Shown: positions 2,566-32,990 of the stretch, piece by piece
Layout of the letters: every line of letters begins with the position of its first letter
How positions within the stretch are numbered: the stretch's first letter is position 1
Virus record (IMG/VR): IMGVR_UViG_3300027668_001681
Location: 1-33,167 of that record
Direction: 5' to 3' (one strand)
DNA from: a virus
DNA length: 33,167 bases
Made by a program: the position numbers and the translations under genes
The notes under the pieces: model-generated
What the model was told of the DNA's origin: nothing
What the model saw: the letters and a program-made list of their open reading frames with translations, nothing else
Database searches by the model: none

Positions 2566-3278
2566 TGCCTATTTTTAAATTACAAGCAACTGTAGATTCT
2601 ACTAACTTAATTGATTACGGATTATTTACTGTAATGGATAAAACTACAGTTGATACATTAATTAATTTAAATGAGTTAGAAGCAAGTGATAAACTTCTTA
2701 ATCTTAAAGTTAGAACAATATTATGGTCAGGCTATAACAGAAAAGGAACAATTGGATATGGAAACATTGACAGTACTAACCTTAGTGGAATAGGACTTAC
2801 TGAAGTACATGCATACACAGCATTTATTGAAAACTTCAAAGACAAAGAACGTAAATTTAAAAAGATATTTCCATTAACAACATTATCTCAATCACAGTAT
2901 GATGCTATGTTAGATTTATATGTAGCAACCGGTTCTTTTAATTTTGTAGGCACTCCTAACAGACAATTTAATTTAACTGATTATATTAAAAATAGACAAT
3001 GGGATTATATTGCAACTGCAATGACATTAGGTGGAGCTGATAGATTAAGCAGACAGGCTGATGCAAAAATATTAATGCTTGGAGACTATGGAGTATACAA
3101 ACTTAGATCACTTATTAAAGAACAAGGGATACAAACACTTGTAAAAGAATACTCAGCAGGACAATTAACAACAGTGCAAACAAAACAGGCAGAATATATT
3201 TATTATGCAGAAACAAAAAGATTCTTGCCTAACATGACTGAAAATAGAAAACGAACTATAGTCACTCAATTATCTTAA
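2565..3278 (+). CDS. Lysozyme-like (GH24 fold) tail protein, catalytic residues not evident
   Basis: The 237-residue protein resembles phage lysozymes in three places. These are a TIGYGN segment (residues about 62-67), a QSQYDAMLDLYVATGSF helix matching the conserved Q-x-DAL-x-SF-x-x-N-x-G helix, and a DRLSRQADAKILMLGDYG segment at the usual L-x-x-RR-x-x-E-x-x-L position. T4 lysozyme uses Glu11, Asp20 and Thr26. The Thr before IGYG is kept, but I see no Glu or Asp at the matching upstream spacings (sequence LKVRTILWSGYNRKG). It may therefore be a structural or altered hydrolase rather than a classical muramidase. Position just after a spike that lacks a lysozyme domain suggests that the T4 gp5 functions are split into two chains. 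No signal peptide is visible, which fits a virion part. Confidence 0.6.
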   Translation: MPIFKLQATVDSTNLIDYGLFTVMDKTTVDTLINLNELEASDKLLNLKVRTILWSGYNRKGTIGYGNIDSTNLSGIGLTEVHAYTAFIENFKDKERKFKKIFPLTTLSQSQYDAMLDLYVATGSFNFVGTPNRQFNLTDYIKNRQWDYIATAMTLGGADRLSRQADAKILMLGDYGVYKLRSLIKEQGIQTLVKEYSAGQLTTVQTKQAEYIYYAETKRFLPNMTENRKRTIVTQLS

Positions 3279-3284
3279 TAAATA
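3277..3284 (+). promoter_or_regulatory. Possible late promoter box AATAAATA before the HNH gene
   Basis: AATAAATA differs by one base from the T4 late -10 box TATAAATA. It overlaps the stop of the upstream gene and sits 25 bp before the TTG start, leaving room for the AAGG at 3298-3301. It is the weakest of the five intergenic boxes. Confidence 0.4.
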
Positions 3285-3872: not shown

Positions 3873-3880
3873 CATAAATA
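3873..3880 (+). promoter_or_regulatory. Late promoter box CATAAATA before gp25
   Basis: CATAAATA fits the NATAAATA late box. It ends five bases before the ATG of the gp25 gene, so if transcription starts about six bases past the box, as in T4, the message begins at or next to the start codon. No Shine-Dalgarno is seen between box and ATG. Confidence 0.65.
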
Positions 3881-13700: not shown

Positions 13701-16700
13701 TAACGACAAAGCCATTACATTTGAAACAAAGAGTTACAAAGATTCAGATTCAGATATACTCACAGGTGGCGAACCACTTGAAAATGAAACAAGATATCAT
13801 ATTGCAGATGCATTTCAATTAAGTACTGTGTTTGATAGTACTGCTAACTATGCAATTATTCCAACTTGGAATAGTTATACAAGTTATAAGAAAGGCGATC
13901 AAGTAAGACATGAAGGTAAATTATTAGAATGTACAGTAGATTATACTGGACTAACTGAGCAATCTTCTACTATAATACTTGACGGTACAGTTTCTTTCCC
14001 ATCATTTGTATATAACACTGTAGCAAACATTGCAGGCACAACTGTCACATTACAAAAGCAACAACTAGAATACAGTAATATTGTTGCAACTGGTACAGTT
14101 TCAAACCCTACACTAATGCCAGGCGCTGTATTAATTATTGACGGAGCAAGTATTCCGTTTAGTAAAAGTACAGATGTTCCAACAGTATCCGAAATGCCAT
14201 ACTTACAAGGCATATCAGGACCTGTTGCATTTTCAAATGTTACAGGAAAAACTATTTCAATTACAATTGATCCAGATGGGACTGGTACATCACCAGTAAC
14301 GACAGCTATTGACTTTGATACAACACCATCAGACGTGGTTGAAAACTTTACAGGTGTATTAAACAAAACAGACTTTATAATAGCACAAGCATTAACAGGC
14401 AGTACATACAGCGTAGGCAGTGTTACAATAGATGGTGCAAACGAAACTGGGTATACTGTAAGTGGGCAGGATATTATATTTACATCAGCACCAATTGCCG
14501 GCGCAGCTATTGTAATTACCTTAGTACATTTACCACATCAGAAAACTGATATAGAGATTAGAGATAAAATAAATGCAGCAGGTATTGCTAGTTTTGCAGC
14601 ATCTATAGTAGATGTAAGTGGAGTTAATGTATTAAAATTAATATATACTACATCTCATGTAGATGCTATATTAAAAATTGAACCAGGTGCAACAAATGCT
14701 GATTTAGGATTTAATATAGCAGGACAAGAAGACACTCCAACAAGTGTATTAATTGCTACACCACAGGCATTAACTTTAGCAGAAATTAAAGATGCAATAA
14801 ATGCAGTAGCAAACGTTAATGCATTGGTACCAGCATTAACAAAAATAACAGCCTCAGCACCAGGACAATATTTAATATTAACAAGTACTAATCGTACAGC
14901 AGCAAACTTAATAGTAACAGGCGCAGGTGCCACTACTGTTGGGTTAACAGGTGCAAGTGGCTCCGCAGTTGGAAATTATCCATATGTTGAAACACCTGTA
15001 AATGTTCCGGCAGACATGGGATATGCAGTTGCTAGAATACAAGAAGAATTAGTAGCACAATCACTTGATTCAATAGTTAGTGCAACAGTTGTACAAAACA
15101 GAATTAGAATAACATCAACAGCAACAACGCTAACAATGGGAACAACTACATTTAATACTTTAGCTGGTCTCGAAACAGGTACAGTGACTTCAGCAGAAAG
15201 TACTATTGTAAATGTATTTGACACAGCTAACTGGATTGATGTAGCAGTTGACCCAGCATTATATAACATACTAGTAACTGATGATAGTAATTTTGAAGTT
15301 GAAACATCGGGAACTATTGTTACTAAGTTTTGGGGCTGGAACGTATTACAAGTGCAAAACAATCTAACACCATTGTATACAAAGAGTACACCTAACATAA
15401 CTGAAACATTTGTTGGTGATGCAACAACCACTGTGTTCACAACAGTGTCTGATGTGTCAGCTACTACGTACAGCATACAGGCTGTGGTTGTAGATAGTGT
15501 GCCTCAGGTCGTAACAACCGACTTTACAGTAAGTGGACAAGTAATTACATTTATAACAGCTCCCGCAGCAACCGCTGTTATCCAAGTTACAATGAAACAT
15601 GCTACAACAATAGGATGTGGTATTTGTGCAGGCACATCAAGTAAAGATGGAAATGATGCTGAAATAACTACTAACGTAGCACACGGGTTGCAAGTAGGTG
15701 ATTATGTACAATTATTAAACACAACCACTACACCTAAGATTGATGGCATACACAAAGTAACAAAGATTAGTGCAAACACATCAATATTTTATATAGATGA
15801 ATACATTGAATCATGTGGTAATGCTGTATCTGTACTGCCTTTAGTTACAACTAGATTCGCAGACACAGCTGCAATGAATGCTACATATACAAATCCACGT
15901 TGGTATTTAGAAGTAGACAAACTTGTATGGGCTTCTAGGACAGTACTTACATCAGGCGCTGAAGCAACACGCGGTACGTATGTACGTAAAACTAAAATTG
16001 ATCCAAATGGAACTAGTACAATTCCTGATACATTTACATTTGTAAGAGACACAACAAGACGACCTACTAACAAAGACATTGACAGTATTGTAATTTATAA
16101 CCATGCTGACAACAGAGCTAAAGCACAACTAGAAGTTTGGGATCCAATAAGAAAGATCATTCCAGGTATTGCTAGTCAAAACTTAGATTATAGTAACAGT
16201 GCAGATAACGCAATTTATACACACTCAACTGATATAACACATTTAGTTGACGAAGATACATCATGGGGCGAAGACCAAATAGGAACCAGATGGTGGGATT
16301 TATCTACAGTAAGATATTATGATTACGACCAAGGATCTTCTTCTTATAAAGCATCCACGTGGGGTAAGCTATACCCAGGTAGTAGTGTAGATGTATACGA
16401 ATGGATTAAGTCAACAGTTGCACCAGATGATTATGCAGCAGCAGTTGAAAAGAATACTGAGATGTTTGGAACAGTAGCAACTGGCACAGCGTTCAGTGTG
16501 TACAACAGCCTTACAGAAGAAAACTTATATTACTACACATCAGTAGAAGAATGGAACCCACGAACAAGTTCATACATAGATGTATATTATTATTGGGTGA
16601 AAAACAAAACAACAACTACAGATACGAGAACATTGTCTGCAGCAGATGTAGCAAACATAATTAAAGATCCTACAGCAAACGGCGTAAGTTGGTTTGCAGT

Positions 16701-18447
16701 AATTAGCAGTAATGAATTTATTATTGACAATATTAGTTACTACATTGAAGATAAGAATACAGTATTACAAATTAATAAAAAGGGTGACAAATATAAGTCA
16801 CACAATGAATGGACACTGATTGCAGAATCAAATGATATAATTCCTGAGTACTATATAAATCGTATGAAGCGTAACCTAGCTGGTAGAACTGATACTAAAC
16901 TTAGAATACCTTTTAGTTCATTACACAGATTTAATAAGTATGGAGATGATTTAGATATTGGACAAGCATGGTTTAATGATTTATCTGATGCAAGGCGTAA
17001 TGCAGTTATAACAATTAACAGTTTATTGCAATATGTAAACCTTGACCAAGCATATAAGAATACATGGGATAGAACATTGGTTGCAAACAACTTCCCAACA
17101 GTATTATGGAACTGGCATGATTACAAACTAGAATCATACACCGGAACTATTAATCATACATTACAAATTGGTGCTTACTCTCAGCTAGCTAATATAAATA
17201 GAGATAGGCATTTAGTTGTAAAAATTCCTGTATTTGATAGAGATGTTCAACTTGACAGAAGTGAGATTTATGCTTATAATACAGTTACAAAACTGTGGGA
17301 TTTAGTACACAAGAGAAATGTAACAGTTCAGTTTAATGTTAGCTTGCTATCATTAGAAGGTGGATGGGACCAGGGCGCATGGGATACTGCAGGTTGGGAC
17401 CAAGCAGACTTATCAGAATATTGGGAAACATTAATTACAGCATTGCACAAAGATATATTTGTTCAATACAACATTGGTGAAATGAACACGTTCTTCTTTA
17501 GTGTTGTTAAGTATATACTTGCTAGCTTTGCTCAAACAAACTGGATTAGAAAAACAGCATATGTTCAATTAGAATTTAATAATACAATAGATACAAAAAC
17601 TAGAAAGTATAAGAAAGATAAAACTAATAGTGCAATAGGTTATATCCAAGAAGTTAAGCCCTTTCATACAAAAATTAGTACAACCACAAACAAGTATTTT
17701 CATAGAGATACAGTTGGACTAACATTAACTGAAACACCACAAACAGTTATATCTGTTAAACATTTTGATATTGATGCTGCATTCGGCGGCACAACATATA
17801 CAGCTGAAGCATTTGGAACTGATACTGCTACAACAACATTAACCGGTGGTGACTTTACTACTAACCACACTAACACAGATATTGTTAGTGGTGTTGGATA
17901 TAACAGCCCAGAGTACTTTAACTATACAACAGATGGAACAAACAGAAATAGTTTAGTAGAAATTAAACCACTAGAGTTATTAAGAATTAATGTGCAGACT
18001 AACACAGCAGGCAGTACACACAACACTGCTTCGAGAACATTTGCACACATACAAGATGCAAGCGGGTATGTGAGAACATACGCATTGTTAGAATCTAAAG
18101 AAGCAGCACTAGCTGCTGATTTAACTATAGTTGCAACAAGCATAAGTGTAGCAAGTACATCAAACTTTGATGATACTGGAATTGCGTATGTTGGTGGTGA
18201 ACTAATAGAATATATAAAAGAAAATTCAACGACACTCAATGTTTTAAAACGTGGAGTAGCAGGAACATTTGCTACAGCAGCAAGTACAGGAACCTCAATA
18301 ACACAAGTTAACACAGCAGAACTTACGTTTGCTAATGAGATTCCAAGTGCGCCACAGTACAATGCATTAAGTGATACGATTTTAAATAGCCCAGGCTCAA
18401 CAATAGCACAAGAGTTGCTTAATTTAGGCAAGGGTATTGAATTATAA
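7732..18447 (+). CDS. Giant virion structural protein (gp7-position baseplate/tail protein, 3,571 aa)
   Basis: A single open frame of 10.7 kb starts one base after gp6, where T4 has gp7, and is very probably a baseplate/tail structural protein. The N-terminal 150 residues (NKNWLDSTMDQMVSKGPLEN, NGYIGNRGG, YQNYRWVEELP) resemble large structural proteins of marine myophages. Residues about 1110-1130 hold a LYTHDGVQIDI segment and residues 1245-1278 a tryptophan/histidine-rich block (LPGHYKGAYTHIFG, TPWHMLGHGF, PSWW). Residues 2204-2266 and 2558-2623 are two copies of a short beta module, and 2273-2484 three tandem repeats resembling flagellar hook IN motifs. WDQGAWDTAGWDQ lies near 3211. The C-terminus has a GGELIEYI...LKRG segment (about 3485-3510) and ends STIAQELLNLGKGIEL. 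T4 gp7 is only about 1,030 residues, so homology to gp7 is unproven; position is the main argument. Confidence 0.75.
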   Translation: MKKKAGQPPVNNIKTSNFLPSVFQTPLNKNWLDSTMDQMVSKGPLENINGYIGNRGGRDATSTDDYIDPKFHKALRKKNQLQPGAISYDNSGNLTNAITFDDVAHSINENFATYNYNAAYGTGLLSYTPPINIDKLVNYQNYRWVEELPIYESIWTGAEKNSVTIAETTSVITDDNNTINIEEGMLIKFTGSGQHADIADDTYIVVGKPGKYTLHLYFSVDGATVTRVYNNITKHTQTTDGVYTNSKLLNVFPNTASSYWTAGKTPQDLVTAYNADTTRLPIFDGFKFADVNSNPEQLMKNVFVKFKDGNGATWTHASTNASDVYSITIDATTGNLTITLATAAEEAALKLVSPGPTISGTGSNSEDTVMYHLGLPVVPLKDYIVISKDDPAQTAWSRANHWINISTINKLKTLLPTYDFTEVSNVNRHATRPIIEYNSEINLWNSPEYSTYTATSKSLNIGTVDWGVGSEAEANSITDVGDTYVYVNNLTGKAGKRFTVTLGAATEITLGGDTTFTIANVKSSYWNDWKNADAFVESGVIKLAQQKTKINQYPLYRFYQCEAVPLENIDGVSFKGEKIFGYKQGTGIVDTELGIALSFKDTPKGAEFEFENFITTKKYYNTYKHVKNDNLSHTKSQSGYSLFKHRDVLKTTYISTSVAAGATDHVQYEVTAADTPFVIPKGRNNWRPTQTYYIHSDRVRYTSGGDQYAITTAHQDGVSHTTRAGTTDFIEVGIDQIVYFYNLTGGVVTHTAAGEVTITVDPSDATKFKVELSALSNGTMFDIIIDGNLLQSFIATEKWDHLYHQVTVNGKLEEACKSVSNTSISIDESVLAVGDIIDLRWNNNDLTNKTTNTSMPDIHKHNVHNKMMETFTLSETMDHWSDKLNTMHGFDGNTFDENNYASIPTCVHGGTIFMYEDGSIMNDINYSNNKLSITGSLSEQANEFVAFRNRVAAQARRVYGVDGATSIQELTNKVIDNVTRNRFDTGMYKESNMLYTQTDTTQSWDVTDLTTTSFRTGYTFNGDVNIRDHGYVYLTEWNGSYQCKKLLLKDKDYDIIGNFIIMKKAFAALDPTLLTAPKLELVFTQMDSGSYVPPSMVKLGLAYGTEPQILSNTLYTHDGVQIDITGKNIENAQAGAAFDPVNAVIFEMEKRIYAGLVKEDSMYIDLYGRAGIERYNSTVDFIPTPQNNTWFTLNDLDNYLEKHYYQWANLNKITSLNTSGYYDAADPFTWNYSTISLLGTDKLPGHYKGAYTHIFGTTTPHITPWHMLGHGFKPSWWDDHYSWKDTANGGDDAKRAALIDALKKGIVSKPTAGNTVQVVANARNTWDWATKCPVTTAGVLADPSIVLGMPANVDKAANFVFGDWGPVEQMWRTNAIGQAMTVDAIIKLVPGKAWTNFFQPGFISQYGNVVKNTTRYSGMLASSNQYKMPGEIYGNSVTSIDVINTNDDRPGTLEATGSLKIMDDYESTIATATYRLNEYPAATGSIRSISVTDRGLDFTGTPVVAYVGTTGAATGLSIDVTLAEVPFVANGIAQAQYNYIKRNQHNVSQTELYKNLTTKLQQKLCGFTSKHLLDLSAESSLTGDFELGEGDFNIAMYRGAVTDSLTASAVFVKKTLTGYSVTGVSNNNREFKFLEPNLVNAVDYNTVTISDQQIRRYNKFVTTASIAEYDTVFQKVQDTYNFLRGYWEWMRVSGYTTQYDGDSIASAFVTWSLTAEVGNVYILQIGREVKFKPTHGHVYEYNQLSYNGNGVLSTDSGTIQNKDLSISRADGTVSLQTKNAEFFGSITSAILDYEHVIIFENKTTQGIHLFDDVKNRRQTRLLLRGQRTQNWTGEKKAPGYLVSDNTIIQNFDSAVQSIDDMYRTDVNEFNASFSKAKDLTIGNIDGTMLDGLGLDKNVLTNFYQGMIKDKGTKNAIEHIGKSRLLDGDATTVSVYEQYMFRQSELGNNDMEDPLEIEIVSKDINSSPQTVSLASSGTNANTIYTTSKKIINDKAITFETKSYKDSDSDILTGGEPLENETRYHIADAFQLSTVFDSTANYAIIPTWNSYTSYKKGDQVRHEGKLLECTVDYTGLTEQSSTIILDGTVSFPSFVYNTVANIAGTTVTLQKQQLEYSNIVATGTVSNPTLMPGAVLIIDGASIPFSKSTDVPTVSEMPYLQGISGPVAFSNVTGKTISITIDPDGTGTSPVTTAIDFDTTPSDVVENFTGVLNKTDFIIAQALTGSTYSVGSVTIDGANETGYTVSGQDIIFTSAPIAGAAIVITLVHLPHQKTDIEIRDKINAAGIASFAASIVDVSGVNVLKLIYTTSHVDAILKIEPGATNADLGFNIAGQEDTPTSVLIATPQALTLAEIKDAINAVANVNALVPALTKITASAPGQYLILTSTNRTAANLIVTGAGATTVGLTGASGSAVGNYPYVETPVNVPADMGYAVARIQEELVAQSLDSIVSATVVQNRIRITSTATTLTMGTTTFNTLAGLETGTVTSAESTIVNVFDTANWIDVAVDPALYNILVTDDSNFEVETSGTIVTKFWGWNVLQVQNNLTPLYTKSTPNITETFVGDATTTVFTTVSDVSATTYSIQAVVVDSVPQVVTTDFTVSGQVITFITAPAATAVIQVTMKHATTIGCGICAGTSSKDGNDAEITTNVAHGLQVGDYVQLLNTTTTPKIDGIHKVTKISANTSIFYIDEYIESCGNAVSVLPLVTTRFADTAAMNATYTNPRWYLEVDKLVWASRTVLTSGAEATRGTYVRKTKIDPNGTSTIPDTFTFVRDTTRRPTNKDIDSIVIYNHADNRAKAQLEVWDPIRKIIPGIASQNLDYSNSADNAIYTHSTDITHLVDEDTSWGEDQIGTRWWDLSTVRYYDYDQGSSSYKASTWGKLYPGSSVDVYEWIKSTVAPDDYAAAVEKNTEMFGTVATGTAFSVYNSLTEENLYYYTSVEEWNPRTSSYIDVYYYWVKNKTTTTDTRTLSAADVANIIKDPTANGVSWFAVISSNEFIIDNISYYIEDKNTVLQINKKGDKYKSHNEWTLIAESNDIIPEYYINRMKRNLAGRTDTKLRIPFSSLHRFNKYGDDLDIGQAWFNDLSDARRNAVITINSLLQYVNLDQAYKNTWDRTLVANNFPTVLWNWHDYKLESYTGTINHTLQIGAYSQLANINRDRHLVVKIPVFDRDVQLDRSEIYAYNTVTKLWDLVHKRNVTVQFNVSLLSLEGGWDQGAWDTAGWDQADLSEYWETLITALHKDIFVQYNIGEMNTFFFSVVKYILASFAQTNWIRKTAYVQLEFNNTIDTKTRKYKKDKTNSAIGYIQEVKPFHTKISTTTNKYFHRDTVGLTLTETPQTVISVKHFDIDAAFGGTTYTAEAFGTDTATTTLTGGDFTTNHTNTDIVSGVGYNSPEYFNYTTDGTNRNSLVEIKPLELLRINVQTNTAGSTHNTASRTFAHIQDASGYVRTYALLESKEAALAADLTIVATSISVASTSNFDDTGIAYVGGELIEYIKENSTTLNVLKRGVAGTFATAASTGTSITQVNTAELTFANEIPSAPQYNALSDTILNSPGSTIAQELLNLGKGIEL
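14341..14529 (+). repeat. Dispersed beta module, copy 1 (giant protein residues 2204-2266)
   Basis: The module runs F-T-G-x-L-x-x-T-D-F-x-x-A-Q-A-L, then a VTIDGANE turn, Y-T-V-S-G-Q-x-I-x-F-x-x-A-P and a V-I-T-L strand. Bases 14345-14391 match 21308-21354 in another gene at 45 of 47 positions, so this is a DNA-level repeat as well as a protein motif. Confidence 0.8.
14548..15183 (+). repeat. Three tandem hook-IN-like repeats in the giant protein
   Basis: Residues about 2273-2484 hold three units. Each has a helix (IEIRDKINAAG; LAEIKDAINAV; AVARIQEELVAQ), a hydrophobic strand (LKLIYTTS; YLILTSTN; RIRITSTA) and a closing segment (ADLGF; TTVGLTG; LAGLETG). This helix plus LTS-x-x-x-G plan recalls the IN motif of flagellar hook-associated proteins. 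The repeat is visible by eye; the family name is an inference. Confidence 0.55.
15403..15600 (+). repeat. Dispersed beta module, copy 2 (giant protein residues 2558-2623)
   Basis: The plan is as in copy 1: ETFVGDATTTVFTTV, YSIQAVVVDSVPQ, FTVSGQVITFITAPAA, IQVTMKH. Its 3' half is close to the copy in the gene at 20143-21600 (15532-15560 against 21430-21458, 27 of 29 bases identical), while its 5' half is not. Confidence 0.75.
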
Positions 18448-18464
18448 TACTATTTAATATTTTG

Positions 18465-18472
18465 TATAAATA
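18465..18472 (+). promoter_or_regulatory. Late promoter box TATAAATA
   Basis: A perfect T4 late box lies in the 45 bp gap after the giant gene and 20 bp before the next ATG. The expected start site falls just at the AAGGA (18479-18483) that serves as ribosome binding site. The box is followed by GTGTAT, as at 21631. Confidence 0.75.
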
Positions 18473-21618: not shown

Positions 21619-21647
21619 TTGACAAATCACCATAAATAGTGTATTAT
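21619..21647 (+). promoter_or_regulatory. Sigma70-type promoter (TTGACA, 17 bp, TATTAT)
   Basis: A perfect -35 TTGACA at 21619-21624 is followed after 17 bp by TATTAT at 21642-21647 (five of six consensus bases). It would let host RNA polymerase transcribe the accessory operon early. The gap is A+T-rich, so the -10 alone is weak evidence; the exact -35 and spacing carry the call. Confidence 0.6.
21631..21638 (+). promoter_or_regulatory. Late promoter box CATAAATA inside the sigma70 spacer
   Basis: CATAAATA followed by GTGTAT repeats the 13-mer ATAAATAGTGTAT found at 18466-18478. It lies between the -35 and -10 of the sigma70 promoter, so the operon could be read both early and late. Confidence 0.6.
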
Positions 21648-22030: not shown

Positions 22031-22929
22031 TGACCGAATACGATGCCAAGCAAGGCGTATGTTTCTTTGCTTACAATAACGATCAATTAGATTATGTAAA
22101 GATGGCTATACTTGCCTCTAAGTATGTTAAGAAGAACTTAAACTTACCAGTCTGTTTAATCACAGACGAGGGATCAGAAAGCTGGCTAGAACAAAGTCAT
22201 TCCAAAGAAGTTATTAACGAAGCGTTTGATTATATTGTAATTACAAACGACGAAATGAAAACAAACACTAGACAACACTTTGATAGTCCGTGGGCTAATT
22301 TTGCAGCGCAATTTAATAACAGCAACAAACATAAGATATATCAATACAGTCCATTTGAACAAACACTATTACTGGACATTGACTACATTGTAAAAACAGA
22401 TGCACTACTTAAATACTTTGATGATCGACACCCAGTGTGTATGTTTGACAACGCATTAACAGTTAGAAATGAATTGCCAGCTGAGCGAGAACGGTTCTTG
22501 TTTGATGCTGGAATTAAAATGTGGTGGAGTACAGTTGTGTATTTTGATCGCAGTGATTACAGCGAATTATTTTTTAATACGTGGGCACACGTTGCAGACA
22601 ATTATGAATTCTATCAGTACCTATACAACTTTCCAAGTAAGCTATTCCGCACAGACTATTGTGTAAGTATAGCAGTACACATACTTGCTGGCATGCAAGA
22701 CAATCAATCGTACCTTGGAAATTTTGATGACACTTCACTAGTAAATATAAATCAGAAAGATGATATTATAGAAACACAAAGTATTAATGAATGGATAGTA
22801 CTATCACATGATCAGAAAGAAGAATGGAAAAATATTCTAGTTAAACTAGATAAACAGGACGTACACGTAATGAACAAGCGAGCATTAAACAGAGTTCAGG
22901 ATACGTTGTTGGAGTATTTTAATGAGTGA
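22030..22929 (+). CDS. GT-A fold glycosyltransferase-like protein with DxD
   Basis: The start is ATG at 22030, overlapping the upstream stop; a TTG six bases earlier is possible but unnecessary. The 299-residue protein opens with GVCFFAYNNDQLDYVKMAIL and LPVCLITDEGS, the Rossmann-like start of GT-A transferases. It then has LLLDIDYIV with the metal/nucleotide-sugar DxD at Asp116-Asp118. Residues about 150-175 (RFLFDAGIKMWWSTVVYFDR) and the C-terminal helices fit an acceptor-side region. The likely reaction is transfer of a sugar from a nucleotide donor; acceptor and donor are unknown. Host LPS, phage glycoprotein and modified DNA are all possible. The next gene, overlapping by eight bases, encodes a similar protein without DxD, so the two may act as a pair. 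Confidence 0.65.
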   Translation: MTEYDAKQGVCFFAYNNDQLDYVKMAILASKYVKKNLNLPVCLITDEGSESWLEQSHSKEVINEAFDYIVITNDEMKTNTRQHFDSPWANFAAQFNNSNKHKIYQYSPFEQTLLLDIDYIVKTDALLKYFDDRHPVCMFDNALTVRNELPAERERFLFDAGIKMWWSTVVYFDRSDYSELFFNTWAHVADNYEFYQYLYNFPSKLFRTDYCVSIAVHILAGMQDNQSYLGNFDDTSLVNINQKDDIIETQSINEWIVLSHDQKEEWKNILVKLDKQDVHVMNKRALNRVQDTLLEYFNE

Positions 22930-24716: not shown

Positions 24717-25699
24717 GCAAGATGACTAGCATAAACGAGTTTGACATTGTATTCATTAGTTACGATGAACCGAACGCAGATGAAAACTTTAACGATTTAA
24801 TTAACAAATGTCCTTGGGCTAAACGTAGCCACGGAGTATTTGGAAGTGACGCAGCACACAAAGCCGCTGCAGATTTAGCAGAGACAGATAGGTTTATAAC
24901 AATTGACGCAGATAACATTGTACGCGAAGATTTCTTTGGTGTTGAGATTGACATGAGTAAAATTAGTGATACAGATGTTGTTAGCTGGGCTGGCAAGAAT
25001 ACAATTAATGGATTAGTATATGGCAATGGCGGCATTAAGTGTTGGCCTAAAGATGTTGTGTATGGAATGCAAACACATGAGAATGCACCAGCTGGAGATA
25101 AACGAGCGCAGGTTGATTTCTGTTGGAACATTAACTACGTGCAGATGAATAATATTTACTGTGATGTAATGAATAATGCTAGTCCATTACAAGCATGGAG
25201 AGCAGGTTTCCGTGAAGGTGTTAAGATGGGACTAGTAGATGGTGACGTAGTTGATCCTACAAACTTAAAAGAATTAGTACACAATAAAAATTATAAACGA
25301 CTACTTACATGGATGAGTGTTGGTGATGACTGTGAGAATGGACTATGGGCAATCTATGGCGCACGTCTTGGATGTCACATGACAAACATCGGTAGAGAAG
25401 ATTGGGACTGGACAAACGTAAGAGACTTTGATTGGTTAACAAAATACTTTAACGAAAATGTATTACCAAACTTTGAAGCAGACAGTGACGAGCTATGCCC
25501 ACGCACAGGTATGCGTTGGAACTATAAAACATTACAAGATGAAAGCAACAGACTTGGATACGAACTACGTTCTAAATTAGATTTAGAAATTGCAGATATG
25601 GGCAAAGAAGGTTCTCGCTTCTTTAAAGAAGTATACATTAATCCTAGCCGCATGGGAGCTCAAATTAAAGAAGAACAGGTGGAAGATACATTAGAATGA
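24713..25699 (+). CDS. DxD glycosyltransferase-like protein (328 aa)
   Basis: The true start is most likely ATG at 24713, which forms ATGA with the upstream stop; the frame is open 69 bases further up but this would cost a 73 bp overlap. The sequence begins FDIVFISYDEPNADENFNDL, followed by WAKRSHGVFGSDAAHK and RFITIDADNIVREDFF with Asp65-x-Asp67. This is the usual order in GT-A (family 2-like) enzymes: strand, acceptor loop, DxD. A GNGGIKCWPK segment and WRAGFREGVKMGL further on may shape the acceptor site. The family occurs in marine T4-like phages. The donor and acceptor are unknown. It is directly followed by the acpS gene (ATGA overlap). Confidence 0.68.
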   Translation: MSKMTSINEFDIVFISYDEPNADENFNDLINKCPWAKRSHGVFGSDAAHKAAADLAETDRFITIDADNIVREDFFGVEIDMSKISDTDVVSWAGKNTINGLVYGNGGIKCWPKDVVYGMQTHENAPAGDKRAQVDFCWNINYVQMNNIYCDVMNNASPLQAWRAGFREGVKMGLVDGDVVDPTNLKELVHNKNYKRLLTWMSVGDDCENGLWAIYGARLGCHMTNIGREDWDWTNVRDFDWLTKYFNENVLPNFEADSDELCPRTGMRWNYKTLQDESNRLGYELRSKLDLEIADMGKEGSRFFKEVYINPSRMGAQIKEEQVEDTLE

Positions 25700-26010
25700 A
25701 TATAGGTGTGGACATAGTTTCTATTAATAGAATACGAACTGTATTTGAAAAATACGGAACACGGTTTACTGATCATTTTCTAACTGAGTCTGAAAAAGAA
25801 AACAAACTAACAGCAGAGTACTTAGCTAAGTGCTGGGCAGTTAAAGAGGCAGCTATTAAAGCAAGTGGTGTAGTTGATGCTAAACAATTTGCGTATGGCA
25901 AGAATGGTAAACAACCTATTGTAGTTACTGACGTTACTGGTACTTGGAACTTGAGTGTCTCAGATGAAAAAGAATATGCAATAGCAACAGTGATAAAATC
26001 AGATGAGTAA
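25696..26010 (+). CDS. acpS: Holo-[acyl-carrier-protein] synthase (4'-phosphopantetheinyl transferase, AcpS type)
   Basis: This enzyme moves 4'-phosphopantetheine from CoA to a serine of an acyl carrier protein. The family signatures are clear: MNIGVDIVSINRI with the Mg-binding Asp6, and LAKCWAVKEAAIKA with Glu51, matching Asp9 and Glu58 of E. coli AcpS. GKNGKQPIVV and LSVSDEKEYAIATVI match the E. coli LGKPRLRL and TLADERHYACATVI segments. At 104 residues it is about 20 shorter than E. coli AcpS, mainly in the loop after residue 30. It overlaps the genes on both sides. An ACP with a DSL serine motif lies 7 kb away in the same window and is the obvious substrate. Host ACP is an alternative. 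Confidence 0.93.
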   Translation: MNIGVDIVSINRIRTVFEKYGTRFTDHFLTESEKENKLTAEYLAKCWAVKEAAIKASGVVDAKQFAYGKNGKQPIVVTDVTGTWNLSVSDEKEYAIATVIKSDE

Positions 26011-27589
26011 GCAAACTAAAGACTTTGATTGGGAATTAAATTCTGTAACAAACGAGTTTGATCCTGGGCTTCGTAATCAACAACATATGAAGTCATTGCT
26101 TAACAGCACAGGTCCTGGTATGTGTTTAGCTAAATGGACACAGGTTACTATGCACTTAGGCAACGGCACTACACATAGTTGTCATCACCCTGCTCCACAC
26201 AAGATACCACTAGAAGAAATAAAAAATAATCCTAGTGCATTGCATAATACAAAGTTTAAAAAAGAACAACGCAAACAAATGCTCAACGGCAAGCGTCCAA
26301 AGGAATGTGAATTTTGTTGGAGAGTGGAAGACAGTGGAGAGCAAAGCGATCGTGTGTATAAAAGTCTAGACTCGTTTAGTTTTAAACACCATGACACGAT
26401 TGCAAAGTTAGTTGGCGATGAAGATATATTTCCTACGTATGTTGAAGTAAGTTTTGGAAACACATGCAATTTTAAATGTGCATATTGTGGGCCAGCCTAT
26501 AGTAGTCAGTGGCAGCAAGAAATTAAAAAAGACGGCCCATACTTATTACCTGACATGACGTTTAATGATAACAACGGAGAACACTCTGAAGCACATATTC
26601 CACAGCGTGAACACAATCCATACATTGAAGCATTTTGGGAATGGTTCCCTGAAGCATACAAACATATGCATACGTTTCGTATCACAGGTGGTGAGCCGTT
26701 GCTAATAAAAGACACAATGAAAGTTATTGATTTCTTATTAGAGAATCCAAATCCTAATTTATCATTTGCAATAAACACTAACGCCTGTCCACCAGATGGC
26801 ATGTGGGAAGAATTTACTGCAAAGATTAAACTACTTGAAGAAGGTAAATGTATTAAAGATTTTGTATTGTTCACTAGTGCTGAAGCAAGCGGTGACAAAA
26901 ATGATTATGTTCGTTATGGCATGGACTACGAACTATGGAAAAAGAATATAGAATACTTTTTAGAAAACACACTATACGCAGGTGTTACTTGTATGAGTGC
27001 GTTTAACTTATTAAGTATCACATCTTTTAAGGAACTGTTAGTATGGATATTAAAACTTAAAAATGATTACAACTGGGCAGGTTGGGATAGGTGGCTACTT
27101 AACAAAGGACTTGACCGTCCTCCTATTAATAGCAATGCAGTGATAATGAACAAGCGGCAGTCGGTAAAGCCTGCTAGAGTATTAATAGATATTCCATATC
27201 TACGTCACCCAGCTTTCTTAGATGCAAGCATTGCATCACTTCCATTAGTTCAAGAGTACTTGTTACCTGCTATTGACTTTATGTACAAAAATTTGTCACA
27301 TGGTGATTGGGGTGGCAATATAGGATTTGATGATTGGGAAGCAAGAAAGATGCGTAGGACTCTTGTTGGCATTGTTGATAAAGCCCAAGAACATTGTGAT
27401 GACAGTGACATAACAACTAATCCAGTTACACGACAAAACAGAACTAGATTTTATAATTTTATAAACCAATATGATAAGCGTAGAGATACTAATTTCTTAG
27501 CAACGTTTCCAGAGTATGCAGAGTTTTATAAACTGTGTAAGCAAGAACACGTTATACTACACGACTTAAAAGCGCAAGGCAAAGCATGA
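26003..27589 (+). CDS. Radical SAM protein with N-terminal twitch-type cysteines
   Basis: A radical SAM enzyme: Cys155-x3-Cys159-x2-Cys162 (CNFKCAYC) holds the 4Fe-4S cluster that splits S-adenosylmethionine, and TGGEPLL (228-234) is the SAM-binding GGEP motif. Before the core, Cys41, Cys60, Cys102 and Cys105 (CLAKWTQ, THSCHHP, ECEFCWRVE) form what looks like an auxiliary-cluster half-SPASM (twitch) domain placed at the N-terminus. This arrangement matches a family of N-twitch radical SAM proteins of unknown function that I recall from marine phages and metagenomes. At 528 residues it is long for radical SAM enzymes; the C-terminal 200 residues are unassigned. It starts inside the last eight bases of acpS, which argues for a linked job, perhaps on a carrier-bound or glycan substrate. 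Confidence 0.88.
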   Translation: MSKQTKDFDWELNSVTNEFDPGLRNQQHMKSLLNSTGPGMCLAKWTQVTMHLGNGTTHSCHHPAPHKIPLEEIKNNPSALHNTKFKKEQRKQMLNGKRPKECEFCWRVEDSGEQSDRVYKSLDSFSFKHHDTIAKLVGDEDIFPTYVEVSFGNTCNFKCAYCGPAYSSQWQQEIKKDGPYLLPDMTFNDNNGEHSEAHIPQREHNPYIEAFWEWFPEAYKHMHTFRITGGEPLLIKDTMKVIDFLLENPNPNLSFAINTNACPPDGMWEEFTAKIKLLEEGKCIKDFVLFTSAEASGDKNDYVRYGMDYELWKKNIEYFLENTLYAGVTCMSAFNLLSITSFKELLVWILKLKNDYNWAGWDRWLLNKGLDRPPINSNAVIMNKRQSVKPARVLIDIPYLRHPAFLDASIASLPLVQEYLLPAIDFMYKNLSHGDWGGNIGFDDWEARKMRRTLVGIVDKAQEHCDDSDITTNPVTRQNRTRFYNFINQYDKRRDTNFLATFPEYAEFYKLCKQEHVILHDLKAQGKA

Positions 27590-28266
27590 TACACGATCCT
27601 ATAAAGTCCGTACACTCTAAAGTTGGGTTGTTGAATATATTGTTTACGCCTGGATCAAGTGGAACATTTTTAGCAAACATGCTAGCACAAGCAATAAGAG
27701 ATCCTTGGTGGGAAGATTATGTTCCTGAAACACCAAACGAATTGTTTAGAGTAACAAATGAATCTCTCAACCCGTTTAATCATATTGCAATGACATGGCA
27801 TCCTGTTAATATTCCTGAAACACATGATGTATTAAGTTTAACAGATATCAACTGGATTAACTTAATTGTTACACCCAACGAAGCAAAGTTTATAAAAGTA
27901 TTATGGGCAATAAAAAGACAAGACTTTATTAATGTTACAAAGGAAGATATATTGTATAGACTTTCTGATGCTAGCGACGATGAGTTCCACGGTATGCATG
28001 CAATGCAAAGTCGCGTTGTGTCGACACTATCAGTTCATAATAATGTGCTAGACGTAAAGTTCAGTGATATATTTGTAGATGGAAATACAGACGTAATACT
28101 ATCCATATTGAATACAGTATTCAAAGGACATTATGTTGCAACAGATGTAGTAAACAATATAGCAACACAATGCATGATTAAGCATTCCGCAGATATAAAA
28201 CTACATAATGAGTTAATTGTTCCCGACGGCGATGGACTTATTGATTACATACTAGCTGAAGTATAA
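27586..28266 (+). CDS. Possible sulfotransferase-like P-loop protein (226 aa)
   Basis: The only recognisable motif is near the N-terminus: LNILFTPGSSGTFLANML (residues 16-33). It looks like the 5'-phosphosulfate-binding loop of sulfotransferases, a strand followed by a Gly/Ser-rich turn and a helix. A VLDVKFSDIF segment at about 165 could correspond to the later strand-Ser motif, but this is weak. The length suits a small sulfotransferase. It shares ATGA with the upstream radical SAM gene and its last 15 bases overlap the 3' end of the convergent minus-strand gene, so no room is left for a terminator. The role remains tentative; it may simply be an unknown P-loop-like phage protein. Confidence 0.45.
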   Translation: MIHDPIKSVHSKVGLLNILFTPGSSGTFLANMLAQAIRDPWWEDYVPETPNELFRVTNESLNPFNHIAMTWHPVNIPETHDVLSLTDINWINLIVTPNEAKFIKVLWAIKRQDFINVTKEDILYRLSDASDDEFHGMHAMQSRVVSTLSVHNNVLDVKFSDIFVDGNTDVILSILNTVFKGHYVATDVVNNIATQCMIKHSADIKLHNELIVPDGDGLIDYILAEV

Positions 28267-29253
28267 ATCTAGCTGTCCGCTGTTCCTAAGCTCTAATGTT
28301 ATATAGTGATTACCAAAGGTATACGCTGTATTTCTAATACCTCTCATATTAATATTTGACATACTTGTATCTAGTTCATCTCGGTACAATTTAAATCCTA
28401 TATCATCAACATGAAACACATATGTAAACTCTGTGTTGGGCATAGCTGTTGCTATGCTACTAATCGATACTAACTTGTCTGGAATGTATTTACAAAATGC
28501 TATATTACGTAGTGCTACTTCAAATGGTGTTTGAAAGAAATTAAGCATATTATGCTTGCCATCAACTGTTGTATAGAACGGATCGCTGAATACAACATCA
28601 GGGTCGCATGTAGTTGTACCACTTAGTACTAACACACGTGTTGCATTTAAATGATATGCAAGCATACAACTGCTATGCCCGTTTTTACAATCTGCAATAA
28701 CATTATACTCAGTGTTTGGAATTAACTGCTTAATGTAGTTGGCTAGTTTCTCTGGACCATTAAGGTCGTCATTTATCCCTTTATACATACAGCTATCATA
28801 CAACACAGGGTTGTGATGGCTTCTCCTTACATCATCTACTATGCTTATAACATTATAATCAGTATAATGATCTAACATCCAACTTAACTGATGTTCAATT
28901 GAATTTCTAGTAAGTTGAAGTAACCAACTACCTCCGCTTACTGCTACTATAGTTTTTGGCTTACCTCTGTCAATATATGACACGGCTAAGTTTTGATCCT
29001 GTATAGCATTCTCATGATGACTTGGGTACATCAATTGATCTATATCTTGTATCTTATCAAAATTATCTACACAGTACTGCCGCTGGTTAGCTGTAAGCTG
29101 CTCATCATTATCATATGCCATATGTTTTATGTTGAACTTATTCATTTCAGTGTAAAAGTCTATAGCCTGCTTGCTGTTAGCAAAGCTCCAATCCTTGCTA
29201 GTAATGTAATCTACAATTGAACAATCGGTTACAGTTGGATGATAAAATTTCAT
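28252..29253 (-). CDS. Alpha/beta-hydrolase-like protein (333 aa)
   Basis: Residues about 100-215 look like the core of an alpha/beta hydrolase. They hold a strand KTIVAVSGGSW, a further strand YNVISIVDD, and a nucleophile-elbow segment NVIADCKNGHSSCMLAYHL with Ser194 in GHSSC, followed by a strand RVLVLSG. The GxSxC elbow departs from the usual GxSxG. I cannot place the acid and histidine with certainty; the C-terminal part has several Asp and His (FHVDDIG, FGNHYITL). Such a fold could be an esterase, acyltransferase or thioesterase. With an ACP nearby a thioesterase is attractive but unproven. It is the last gene of the minus-strand trio, its ATG abutting the upstream TAA, and it overlaps the convergent plus gene by 15 bp. 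Confidence 0.45.
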   Translation of the reverse strand: MKFYHPTVTDCSIVDYITSKDWSFANSKQAIDFYTEMNKFNIKHMAYDNDEQLTANQRQYCVDNFDKIQDIDQLMYPSHHENAIQDQNLAVSYIDRGKPKTIVAVSGGSWLLQLTRNSIEHQLSWMLDHYTDYNVISIVDDVRRSHHNPVLYDSCMYKGINDDLNGPEKLANYIKQLIPNTEYNVIADCKNGHSSCMLAYHLNATRVLVLSGTTTCDPDVVFSDPFYTTVDGKHNMLNFFQTPFEVALRNIAFCKYIPDKLVSISSIATAMPNTEFTYVFHVDDIGFKLYRDELDTSMSNINMRGIRNTAYTFGNHYITLELRNSGQLDLYFS

Positions 29254-30270
29254 TTATTTTCCACCGTGCCAGTTAGGACCAATTATAGTATCGTATTGTA
29301 CTTCAAGTTCGTCATCAGTCATGTTGGCTAAGTCTGGTATTACATTATCTTCCCAATACTCTGCTCTTACTGGAAACGGTGCAATGGCTGTTAATCTAAA
29401 ATCATGTGGGTTGGAATGTAATGCTTTGCGACCTATATCTTCTCTACCTCTTATTATATAAGGAAACATACTAGTAGGTATAGTCATTTTTTTAGCAAGG
29501 GACGCTATCATTTCGTGTGTATCAATTACTGGATATCCAGTGTTAAGTTTCTGTACAGAATAATTACTTATATGCTTGCTAGGAATATATTCCATAGCAT
29601 CGTATACTAGGTTATCTAAAGCAGTTCCAACGCCAAACAGAAACATGTCCTGGCCATTTGGATACATAAATGTGTTATTATATCTTCTAATAAGTTCTAT
29701 GGGTTGTAGTAATATTAAATTCTTGTCAGCAGTATTAAACGACATGCGAGTATCAACTGGGCAATTTGTTAATTCATTAACCACAGTTCTAAATGCATGC
29801 TGTGGCCATACTAACACATCATACCGTTGCATAACAACTAGGTCGTATGTTATGTGAGTAGCCGCTTCGTGTTTTTGCTTTAGCATAATACTATCTGCCC
29901 ACCCGGCTAACACTTTACATCCCACAATAGACCGGTCAATATCTAAAAGTTGTTCTTCGTATTCAGTAGTGTATATTTTAAATTCTACTGGATTATACGC
30001 ATCGTGTATTTGTTTAGATTGGTACTTAACTGTATCAGATGATAAGAGTTGTTGTTGTCTGAAATCTTTAATTCCTGACTTTTCATTGTAGTGCGGTCTT
30101 GTATATGAAGTTTCATATTCTTTTAAACTACAAAAGAAATCTACGTTTACACCTGGCATGTCGTAGAATTTCTTTATGTATTCTTTACACGCATCGCCAG
30201 TACGGTACTGTCCATACATGCAAACAGCTACGTTCTTAATGACTATACTACTTTGTACAGCATCTGTCAT
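29254..30270 (-). CDS. Glycosyltransferase-like protein (338 aa)
   Basis: The start VAVCMYGQYRTGDACKEYIK (residues 14-33) and the later YDLVVMQRYDVLVWP (142-156, with Arg149-x-Asp151) resemble a family of poorly studied sugar-transfer proteins that open with a C-x-x-GQ-x-R motif and carry an R-x-D motif in place of DxD. Residues about 205-230 (YPNGQDMFLFGVG) may form the following acceptor segment. There is no signal peptide or membrane segment. It overlaps the upstream minus-strand gene by four bases (ATGA) and is followed at once by the hydrolase-like gene. It probably modifies host surface glycans or a phage product; donor and acceptor are unknown. Confidence 0.5.
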   Translation of the reverse strand: MTDAVQSSIVIKNVAVCMYGQYRTGDACKEYIKKFYDMPGVNVDFFCSLKEYETSYTRPHYNEKSGIKDFRQQQLLSSDTVKYQSKQIHDAYNPVEFKIYTTEYEEQLLDIDRSIVGCKVLAGWADSIMLKQKHEAATHITYDLVVMQRYDVLVWPQHAFRTVVNELTNCPVDTRMSFNTADKNLILLQPIELIRRYNNTFMYPNGQDMFLFGVGTALDNLVYDAMEYIPSKHISNYSVQKLNTGYPVIDTHEMIASLAKKMTIPTSMFPYIIRGREDIGRKALHSNPHDFRLTAIAPFPVRAEYWEDNVIPDLANMTDDELEVQYDTIIGPNWHGGK

Positions 30271-30788
30271 GTAAATGATTCCAATTCAGTATATTGCAGG
30301 TTCCGTTGCCACATTGTTCTGACTAATATTTCATGTGCAGTATCACGTTCTAGTACAGCTGGTTCGTTTTTGTAACCATCAATCCATTTCCATAGTGTTA
30401 CTAGTTTCATAAAACTACTATAACTTGTTACAAATGCAGTTGGTATCGGCCATGGTTGAGGAACGTGTTCCCAACTATACTCTGGGTATCTTAACTTATC
30501 AAATATAATTGCGCTATTAGGAAGTGTATTAAATTTTTCTAATAATTTGCTGAAGTCAAAATCACCTGTGCTTGCACATACTGTACACGAATTATTAGCA
30601 AGTTCGTGTTGACCAAACTTAGTATACATGTCAACACCATTCTGCCAATGAGCTTTAAAGTTGCCAAACAAAGAATGTTCATATTGATCCCAACCGTCTG
30701 AACCACATTGGGTTGATATAAACGTATCCCAATGTCCCGGCGCTGTTGGTATAGCTTCCTCAGTGGCAACAATACTTAATAGTATCAA
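30267..30788 (-). CDS. Unknown phage protein, TTG start (173 aa)
   Basis: I do not recognise the family. The best start is TTG at 30788, six bases after AGGGAG (minus strand, 30800-30795); an ATG start would lose more than 50 residues. The protein is rich in aromatic residues (Trp, Tyr, Phe), with segments GHWDTFISTQCGSDGWDQYE, SWEHVPQPWPIPTAFVTSY and VTLWKWIDGYKNEPA. It has no membrane helix and no metal-binding pattern. It is the first gene of a minus-strand trio and lies behind the GATAAATA half of the bidirectional box, so it is probably a late gene. The GWDQYEHSLFGNF region could be carbohydrate-binding, but this rests on composition alone. Confidence 0.6.
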   Translation of the reverse strand: MILLSIVATEEAIPTAPGHWDTFISTQCGSDGWDQYEHSLFGNFKAHWQNGVDMYTKFGQHELANNSCTVCASTGDFDFSKLLEKFNTLPNSAIIFDKLRYPEYSWEHVPQPWPIPTAFVTSYSSFMKLVTLWKWIDGYKNEPAVLERDTAHEILVRTMWQRNLQYTELESFT

Positions 30789-30817
30789 TTAATTCTCCCT
30801 ATCATTAACTACACATA

Positions 30818-30832
30818 TATTTATCATAAATA
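30818..30832. promoter_or_regulatory. Bidirectional late promoter, near-palindrome TATTTATCATAAATA
   Basis: The 15 bases form a palindrome except for the central base. On the plus strand CATAAATA (30825-30832) ends five bases before the ATG of the aminotransferase-like gene. On the minus strand GATAAATA (30825-30818) precedes the AGGGAG ribosome binding site and TTG of the minus-strand trio. Both fit the NATAAATA late box, so one 15 bp site could fire in both directions. Confidence 0.65.
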
Positions 30833-30837
30833 CATAC

Positions 30838-31596
30838 ATGCCTACTAAACTAATAAACACTTTTATACTTCCAGAAGTACAACAAGAGTTAGATACTGTT
30901 GTGCCACAACTCAATGGCAGACACGCATATGAAACAAATATTAAACAATGGCTATCGCCTATAGTAGACTTAACGGGCTTCTTTGTTTATCCAGTAAATG
31001 GAATAACAGAAGCAATCAACTGGTGGGCAAGTAAAGAACAACGCAACATACACAAAGCCGAAGGTGACTACGAATGGGTTGAAGAAGGTATGCATAACTT
31101 GTGGGCTAAATCAAATGATGTACTGTATATGTCTTGTCCAAGTTCCATAGATGGAAACTATGTAGATATTCCAACTGATGTTCCAGTGGTGCTAGACATT
31201 GCATACGTAGGAACTACACCTATTAAAAAAATTAACATAACGCCCAATGTTGAAAAAGTATTTTTTAGTTTAAGCAAACCTTTTGGAATAAGCAATATAA
31301 GAACAGGTTGGTACTTTACAAGACGTCCAGATGCACGATTACATATGCTAACTATAGAAGCAATGTATTATAACAAGTGTGCTTTACAGTACGCAGAGCA
31401 CTTGATAAATACATACAGCATAGATTATATACACAGTAAACTAAAAGATGCACAACTTCAAGTATGTAATGAACTAGATATTACACCAAGCGATTGTGTT
31501 TGGTTAGCCACTTCAACCAATGACAAGTATATAAACTACAGACGCACTAACAATATAGCTAGGCTTTGTATCACAGAACTATTAAAGGAAATATAA
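30838..31596 (+). CDS. Compact PLP-dependent aminotransferase-like protein (252 aa)
   Basis: The protein keeps the core of fold-type I aminotransferases in the right order. These are VYPVNGITEAIN (residues 50-61, cofactor phosphate region), VVLDIAYVG with Asp120 and Tyr123 (ring nitrogen and ring oxygen contacts), and FFSLSKPFGISNIRTGW with Schiff-base Lys147 and Arg155. The C-terminus YRRTNNIARLCITELL resembles the last strand-helix of the family. Full-length members have about 380-420 residues, so most of the small domain and N-terminal segment is missing. It may be a dimer that borrows parts, or act on a large carrier-bound substrate. The ATG lies five bases after a late box with no Shine-Dalgarno. 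Its TAA overlaps the ATG of the next gene. Confidence 0.72.
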   Translation: MPTKLINTFILPEVQQELDTVVPQLNGRHAYETNIKQWLSPIVDLTGFFVYPVNGITEAINWWASKEQRNIHKAEGDYEWVEEGMHNLWAKSNDVLYMSCPSSIDGNYVDIPTDVPVVLDIAYVGTTPIKKINITPNVEKVFFSLSKPFGISNIRTGWYFTRRPDARLHMLTIEAMYYNKCALQYAEHLINTYSIDYIHSKLKDAQLQVCNELDITPSDCVWLATSTNDKYINYRRTNNIARLCITELLKEI

Positions 31597-32735
31597 TGGA
31601 AAAACACGCAGACAAAAATGTAACTGCATCACAACGTGTGGATGCAAAAGCATACGAAGAAATGAACATGCCTATGTCAGGTAACCCAGAACAAGATAAT
31701 ATTACTATACTAGATGACAAGCCACCGCTGTTTCACAGCATACCGGAATACGATATTGAAAACAATCCATTTAGCTTCTTGTACGTGGACATGACATACG
31801 ACTGCAATATGGAATGTGAATTTTGTTACAACCCAGTGCGTACATACAGTACATTAGACATTGAATGGTTTGAAGATGTGTGTGCTAGGCTACCGCACCC
31901 AGTTAACTTTAGACTGTTGGGCGGTGAACCAACGCTATACCCAGACCTAGAAAGAGCATTAGATGCATGTACAAAATATGGTCACCAGGCAGCAGTAGTC
32001 ACAAACGGATTACGTTTAGCTAGCATGAACTATGCAAAAAAACTTAAAGCAGTTTTAGATCGTAATCCTACAGTAAATGTATCGCTGTCAATGAATGGTG
32101 GAATGCATCATGATGATTGGTATGTAGCTATTGATGGTGAGAGCAGACGTGCTAAGAAAGTTAAAGCATTAGAAAATATGTTAGAGCTAGGTTATCGTAG
32201 GCTATGTATTAACGCTATTATTGTTAAAGGTCTTAACGAAGGACTTGTACAAGAATTTTATGACAAAGCATTACAACACCCAGGACAAATTACAAACATT
32301 AGATTCCGTACAGCAGCCAAGCAAGGTCGTTGGGACGAAGAGATATTTGATGAAGGTGAACAAACAAGTTACACAGGACTACAGCTTGACGAATACATTA
32401 AAAGTGTTATACCAGAAGCACGTAATCCAATTAAAACTATTAGAGATGGATACAATCCTAGCACAGGCAGTGGTGTAAGAATTAATAACCCAGACTTAAA
32501 GTGTAACCAGTGTTGCTTTATGTATTACATACGACCACAACTGTGGGTAGCAACTGTAGAGTTTGGATCACATAACAGTGCATTGTGTTGGCGCCGTGGA
32601 CAACTGGTGCAAGGCAACCAAGTCATACAACCATTCCATCACTACATGGACGAGCTTAGTAGATATATTCAAACATACAAGCCCAGCGGTATCAGAGAAA
32701 CTGCTAAAACAAAAAGCATACCAATACAAGAATAG
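31596..32735 (+). CDS. Radical SAM protein with C-terminal cysteine cluster
   Basis: The start is ATG at 31596 (TAATG with the upstream stop, AAAGGAAA just before); an open frame 30 bases further up lies inside the aminotransferase gene. Cys70-x3-Cys74-x2-Cys77 (CNMECEFCY) is the radical SAM cluster motif and LLGGEPTLYPDLE (108-119) binds SAM. The following HQAAVVTNGLR and VNVSLSMNGG strands are typical of the MoaA/anSME-like branch. Near the C-terminus Cys303, Cys306, Cys307 and Cys331 (KCNQCCFMYY, SALCWRRG) could bind an auxiliary Fe-S cluster. The 379-residue length is normal for SPASM-type enzymes. It is followed nine bases later by an ACP, so a carrier-bound substrate is plausible; peptide or sugar substrates are alternatives. 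Confidence 0.9.
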   Translation: MEKHADKNVTASQRVDAKAYEEMNMPMSGNPEQDNITILDDKPPLFHSIPEYDIENNPFSFLYVDMTYDCNMECEFCYNPVRTYSTLDIEWFEDVCARLPHPVNFRLLGGEPTLYPDLERALDACTKYGHQAAVVTNGLRLASMNYAKKLKAVLDRNPTVNVSLSMNGGMHHDDWYVAIDGESRRAKKVKALENMLELGYRRLCINAIIVKGLNEGLVQEFYDKALQHPGQITNIRFRTAAKQGRWDEEIFDEGEQTSYTGLQLDEYIKSVIPEARNPIKTIRDGYNPSTGSGVRINNPDLKCNQCCFMYYIRPQLWVATVEFGSHNSALCWRRGQLVQGNQVIQPFHHYMDELSRYIQTYKPSGIRETAKTKSIPIQE

Positions 32736-32744
32736 GAAAACACT

Positions 32745-32990
32745 ATGAACAAAGAAGAAACAAGAGCAAAGATGCAAGCAATATTAACTGAAGGATTATT
32801 TCTTAAAAGCGATGATACCTTTGATATGGCAAGCACGTTTGGTGGCGACTTAGGTTTAGATAGTTTAGATAAAATCGAAGTTAAGCTAACACTCGAAGAT
32901 GCATTAGGAATACTATTGCCTGAAGATAGTTTTGCAGGTGATGTTGATACTGTAGAAGATGCAGTTGATCTGATAATGAAACATGCATAA
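32745..32990 (+). CDS. Acyl carrier protein (81 aa)
   Basis: A stand-alone acyl carrier protein. Its length, acidic composition and the motif GGDLGLDSLDKIEV, with phosphopantetheine-accepting Ser40, are those of type II ACPs. The four-helix plan is visible: KEETRAKMQAILTEG, then the DSL helix VKLTLEDALG, a short GDVDT turn and VEDAVDLIMKH. It would carry an acyl, aminoacyl or other thioester intermediate once AcpS has added the arm. The AAT-AGGAAAA sequence before ATG is a fair ribosome binding site. The next gene starts inside its last eight bases, so ACP and HAD protein are translationally linked. Its neighbours are a radical SAM enzyme and an aminotransferase rather than fatty-acid synthesis genes, so it probably serves a special pathway. 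Confidence 0.93.
   Translation: MNKEETRAKMQAILTEGLFLKSDDTFDMASTFGGDLGLDSLDKIEVKLTLEDALGILLPEDSFAGDVDTVEDAVDLIMKHA

Follow-up and report, generated by a model that had tools for sequence, protein, structure and literature searches.

Gene organization around the divergent junction

The window, that is, the whole 33,167-nucleotide stretch of viral DNA analyzed here, contains a divergent junction at which a 49-nt gap (30789-30837) separates a minus-strand ORF starting with TTG at 30788 from a plus-strand ORF starting with ATG at 30838 (Table 1). The first plus-strand product showed no sequence match to solved structures, and its aminotransferase-like fold was assigned by structure search; the homologue in the SAR11 phage Mosig is annotated as aminotransferase. 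With 252 residues, the protein is approximately 100 residues shorter than most of its solved fold relatives. Genes for phosphopantetheinyl transferase and a second radical SAM protein were found on the plus strand past the far end of the minus-strand trio (25696-27589). The regions 25696-28266 and 30838-32990 together encode a phosphopantetheinyl transferase, a carrier protein, two radical SAM proteins and the aminotransferase-like protein. This phage-borne gene set suggests that a marine T4-like phage has a biosynthetic pathway of the carrier-bound type.

Table 1. Positions of genes, promoter boxes and predicted transcription start sites in the window
Feature	Position	Strand	Basis
Late box, next start 25 nt downstream	3277-3284	+	Sequence
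Late box of the leaderless type, CATAAATA, 5 nt 5' of ATG 3886 (gp25-like baseplate gene)	3873-3880	+	Orthologues throughout the clade have identical spacing
Late box TATAAATA, 20 nt before ATG 18493	18465-18472	+	Sequence
Late box, 44 nt before ATG 21683	21631-21638	+	Sequence
Minus trio gene 3, 333 aa, family not assigned	28252-29253	-	ORF
Minus trio gene 2, 338 aa, family not assigned	29254-30270	-	ORF
Minus trio gene 1, 173 aa, TTG start, family not assigned	30267-30788	-	TTG (30786-30788) and Shine-Dalgarno conserved in relatives
Shine-Dalgarno GGGAGA of minus gene	30794-30799	-	Sequence; GGGAGT/AGGAG in relatives
Predicted minus +1, leader of about 24 nt	30812	-	Register as for the plus side
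Near-palindrome TATTTATCATAAATA, back-to-back pair of late boxes with base 30825 in common	30818-30832		Sequence; identical in relative G001
Minus-strand late box GATAAATA, 29 nt before TTG 30788	30818-30825	-	Found in all related haplotypes with the junction
Plus-strand late box CATAAATA, 5 nt 5' of ATG 30838	30825-30832	+	5-nt spacing kept in all relatives with the junction
Predicted plus +1, A of ATG (leaderless)	30838	+	T4 late box at -13 to -6
Plus gene 1, PLP fold-type I aminotransferase-like, 252 aa	30838-31596	+	AlphaFold2 pLDDT 84; Foldseek aminotransferases, E 3.5e-10
Plus gene 2, radical SAM protein	31596-32735	+	PF04055, E 4.8e-13
Plus gene 3, acyl/peptidyl carrier protein	32745-32990	+	PF00550, E 2.2e-05

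The baseplate genes of the window matched T4-like tail families, and a single ORF of 3571 aa (7732-18447) was located directly 3' of the baseplate wedge gene. The annotated phage collection held no close DNA relatives of the window; the nearest annotated records were the large T4-like phages SCTP-2, PA5oct and Atu_ph07, at approximately 35% protein identity. A single-protein search of viral contigs with plus gene 1 gave no relatives, and the relatives used below were recovered via the radical SAM gene followed by profile searches. The gp55-type late sigma family phrog_12791 was detected in 17 of the 18 related or reference records searched, and in the contigs closest to the window (G001, G003 and G004) with E values of about 1e-94, while no gp55 gene was identified within the 33-kb window fragment itself. 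In S-PM2, the phrog_234 match to the late sigma region (84538-85035, L235) crosses one in-frame TGA.

Two late promoter boxes in the intergenic gap

The gap was found to hold TATTTATCATAAATA, a 15-bp near-palindrome that is the sole exact match to TATTTATNATAAATA in the window, and each strand of it constitutes one T4-type late-promoter box, NATAAATA. The position of the near-palindrome, its reading on both strands and its location between the minus-strand trio and the plus-strand genes were all as described in the original prediction. T4-type late promoters carry the NATAAATA box before late genes without a conserved -35 element, and this is the arrangement seen at the site. The promoter scan of the junction gave no sigma70 -35 element paired with it, and sigma70 promoters and terminators were detected there at chance level only. 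The same box, likewise placed in front of late genes, structural genes among them, is known from the gp55/gp33/gp45-dependent late promoters of T4 (TATAAATA; PMC2988020) and from cyanophages (NATAAATA; PMC2984593), and the presence of a gp55-family sigma factor in the close relatives of the window is a further likeness to the T4 system.

When the gap was shuffled 200,000 times with dinucleotides preserved, 0.5% of the shuffles contained both boxes and 0.011% the exact palindrome, and the box density of the window itself gave an expectation of about 6e-5 for both boxes in the gap. In the whole window ATAAATA was under-represented, with 12 copies versus 20.2 +/- 4.6 in shuffles, and it was aimed at the downstream gene in each of the five gaps exceeding 15 nt. 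The box position was locked to gene starts across the clade. The 5-nt spacing of the gp25-like gene persists in orthologues down to approximately 35% identity of the adjoining baseplate protein.

The box pair lies closer to the plus gene than to the minus gene. The claim that each box is correctly placed for its gene held for the minus side, with a distance of 29 nt and the GGGAGA motif; on the plus side, where the 5-nt distance to the ATG had been overlooked, it holds only if the mRNA is leaderless, a reading that the comparative data support.

Conservation of the junction in related phages

The divergent genes were kept in five further contigs representing three haplotypes. Looking for the palindrome between divergent genes of related phages had been proposed as a check, and in G001 it was identical despite an identity of only 52-70% between the flanking proteins; box pairs also recurred elsewhere. 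The junction reads TATTTAT-CGA-CTAAATA, with a 3-bp spacer, in G002, G003 and G005, and TATTTAT-CGATAG-CTAAATA, with a 6-bp spacer, in G004. The distance from the plus box to the ATG was 5 nt at every orthologous junction, while the box spacer was 1, 1, 3 or 6 bp, indicating that a box goes with the gene it serves and that the sharing of a base is not preserved. CTAAATA, alone among the 21 one-base variants of the box, peaked 5 nt before ATG (10 cases, compared with 74 for ATAAATA and 0-3 for the others), and is by this positioning a genuine box variant. Remoter relatives of the plus gene (L013-L026) belong to other operons that lack the junction, and are thus uninformative about the palindrome.

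Recurrence of back-to-back boxes at divergent junctions

Box pairs within 60 bp were surveyed in the window, the related contigs and Mosig, amounting to approximately 1.8 Mb before overlap removal. The gene starts came from a simple ORF caller and were checked at a few sites, where the annotated starts of HTVC008M and Mosig agreed. Back-to-back ATAAATA pairs were rare; the set had 10, and all 10 lay between divergent genes with good starts, versus 15 of 261 pairs (approximately 6%) in a decoy control with 20 permutations of the motif letters, so that the assignment as a two-way late promoter is well supported. When CTAAATA was also counted, 13 of 15 pairs were at divergent junctions, with spacers of 0, 1, 1, 3, 6, 6, 7, 8, 9, 25, 25, 30 and 45 bp. 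A box on both strands was carried by 23 of the 80 divergent junctions in the survey set. The proposal of two T4-type late promoters pointing apart, one for each gene group, was thus strengthened by the recurrence in relatives, together with the gp55-family gene in the closest of them.

Marine phages, isolated phages of SAR11 among them, appear to use tight back-to-back pairs of T4-type late promoters repeatedly, and T4 itself has a single case. Mosig carries TATTTATATAAATA between annotated genes (60971-60984) with a 0-bp spacer. The pair TATTTATATCTAAATA in the isolated SAR11 phage HTVC008M (18914-18945, L261) has a 2-bp spacer and lies between the genes for DNA end protector and head completion proteins; both annotated ATGs are 5 nt from their own boxes, that is, both sides are of the leaderless type. 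The T4 pair between genes 26 and 51 (NC_000866, 116441-116461, 7-bp spacer) resembles the window site in having back-to-back late boxes between divergent late genes, but both T4 sides have leaders and the two boxes have no base in common. In G032 (22849-22870, L131), the two boxes of a further back-to-back pair each lie exactly 5 nt from an ATG.

Predicted leaderless transcript on the plus side

The late box of T4 spans -13 to -6, and substitutions with A at -13 have been described (PMC2988020); the T preferred by T4 at this position is absent from both boxes of the window site. With the box in this register, the 5-nt distance would place the +1 of the plus transcript on the A of the ATG, and the transcript is therefore predicted to be leaderless. 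Box-to-start distances in 13 clade contigs and Mosig were two-peaked, with 4, 6 and 7 nt nearly empty. The class at exactly 5 nt comprised 40 genes from 25 families, all starting with ATG, and only six had SD-like triplets; the gp25-like baseplate family provided 13 of these genes, and the other 24 families are independent. In the leadered class (10-40 nt), SD-like triplets preceded 143 of 164 genes, and 15 genes had TTG or GTG starts. HTVC008M contributed 8 more ATAAATA cases and 3 CTAAATA cases at 5 nt. This exact spacing, frequent in the clade of the window, was not found in T4, S-PM2 or Syn9.

Leaderless genes are marked by a -10-type signal that puts the +1 on the start codon, by the lack of a Shine-Dalgarno sequence and by an ATG start. 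The plus gene starts with ATG and has no Shine-Dalgarno sequence after its box, which is predicted to put the +1 on that codon. Leaderless initiation at this gene is inferred from the spacing, and a transcription start only a few bases off would give a leader of 1-3 nt or the loss of the ATG. In the TA-led genes of bacteria, a -10-type signal approximately 10 bp before the start codon marks leaderless genes (PMC3160421). The phage class likewise has a -10-type signal at about this distance without a Shine-Dalgarno sequence, but differs in that the signal is a late-sigma box locked at one exact distance.

A search of open-licence papers yielded nothing on T4-type late mRNAs that lack leaders, nor on the 26/51 pair of T4, and leaderless late mRNAs in T4-like phages are provisionally regarded as undescribed so far. 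A published search for late promoters in SAR11 myophages failed (PMC7029224). The present results would help to define the late promoters of these phages and improve the annotation of gene starts. They lead to the prediction that a whole set of late genes, structural genes included, is translated from leaderless mRNAs, and the isolates HTVC008M and Mosig make both this and the paired-promoter prediction directly testable.

Proposed mechanism and polymerase exclusion

This marine T4-like phage very probably has a compact two-way late promoter at the site, with a leadered minus side, a leaderless plus side and mutually exclusive polymerases that would set a ratio rather than operate a switch. 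The comparisons above establish the sequence, its conservation and recurrence and the locked spacing, from which the start sites, the late timing, leaderless translation and mutual exclusion are predicted. Two gp55-type late boxes stand back to back, each of which would act as the -10 analogue of its own promoter, and RNA polymerase with the phage late sigma factor could melt the site facing either way. The minus transcript would run from around 30812, with the Shine-Dalgarno sequence in its leader of about 24 nt, to the TTG start, and the plus transcript would begin exactly on the A of ATG 30838. The predicted starts are separated by 26 bp (25 bp and the spacer). At such a short distance, one polymerase is expected to exclude the other, and the two sides would alternate on a given DNA molecule. 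The activated late complex of T4 makes protein-DNA contacts at -39 and -36/-35, and its upstream footprint grows by 13 bp with the sliding clamp (PMC2988020); with a footprint of this size, both promoters could not be occupied together. As many genome copies are present late in infection, the outcome would be a ratio between the sides. Whether that ratio follows the orientation of the sliding clamp, and hence the local replication direction, as the factor that picks the transcribed side at back-to-back late promoters, is doubtful; if it did, the ratio of the two sides would be tied to replication.

The original prediction went further, in that the one-base overlap could make a built-in either/or switch or a balance between the two sides. 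In its strong form, this reading has the overlap evolve under selection so that expression of one gene group excludes, or is closely balanced against, that of the other. Base 30825 is indeed common to both boxes, and the retention of the exact palindrome in G001 despite the divergence of the flanking proteins would fit such selection. Bidirectional promoters of E. coli do show polymerase competition, but only at high activity (PMC12825309), a level that activated late promoters may reach. Steric exclusion, however, needs no common base: it is expected at all short spacers, as a by-product of tight packing, and the spacers shift to 3 and 6 bp at the orthologous junctions and are 0-9, 25, 30 or 45 bp elsewhere. 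Neither a feedback loop or regulator nor a fixed spacing was seen, and an either/or choice would be averaged out over many genome copies. A selected switch is an unlikely reading, and the weight that the prediction gave to the common base was not supported.

The compact two-way late promoter proposed here can be compared with the bacterial bidirectional promoters described by Warman et al., whose start sites are usually 18 bp apart within a defined range of 7-25 bp (PMC12825309, PMC10268837). In both, short symmetrical DNA could take up polymerase either way round, and a polymerase bound in one direction would block the opposite one. The bacterial promoters, however, overlap at one shared sigma70 -10 element, whereas the window site consists of two full late boxes side by side, with one base in common and predicted starts 26 bp apart. 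The site is therefore predicted to work like a bidirectional promoter while falling just outside the Warman/Grainger definition.

It is very unlikely that the TATNATA centre serves the host polymerase as a sigma70-type bidirectional -10 element. The hexamers TATCAT (+) and TATGAT (-) do overlap at the centre, and the starts they imply, 30834 and 30816, have the classic 18-bp spacing of bidirectional promoters (PMC10268837). These central hexamers are nevertheless gone in G003 and G004, where both late boxes are retained. The site is accompanied by neither a -35 nor an extended -10 element, the promoter scan returned no promoter using it, and the plus start would leave a leader of only 4 nt.

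Operators of dimeric regulators are typically two-fold symmetrical sites between divergent genes, and the site has both the symmetry and the location. It is still extremely improbable that a dimeric DNA-binding protein uses it as an operator to repress or activate the two sides: the half-site spacing differs by 2 and 5 bp among the orthologous junctions, which would break the helical register, and the half-sites are a promoter box that occurs singly before many other genes. This reading was rejected on spacing and conservation. A chance match without function in an AT-rich gap has next to no likelihood and was likewise rejected, given the rarity of the palindrome in shuffles of the gap, the fixed spacing, the conservation in relatives and the location of all 10 ATAAATA pairs at divergent junctions.
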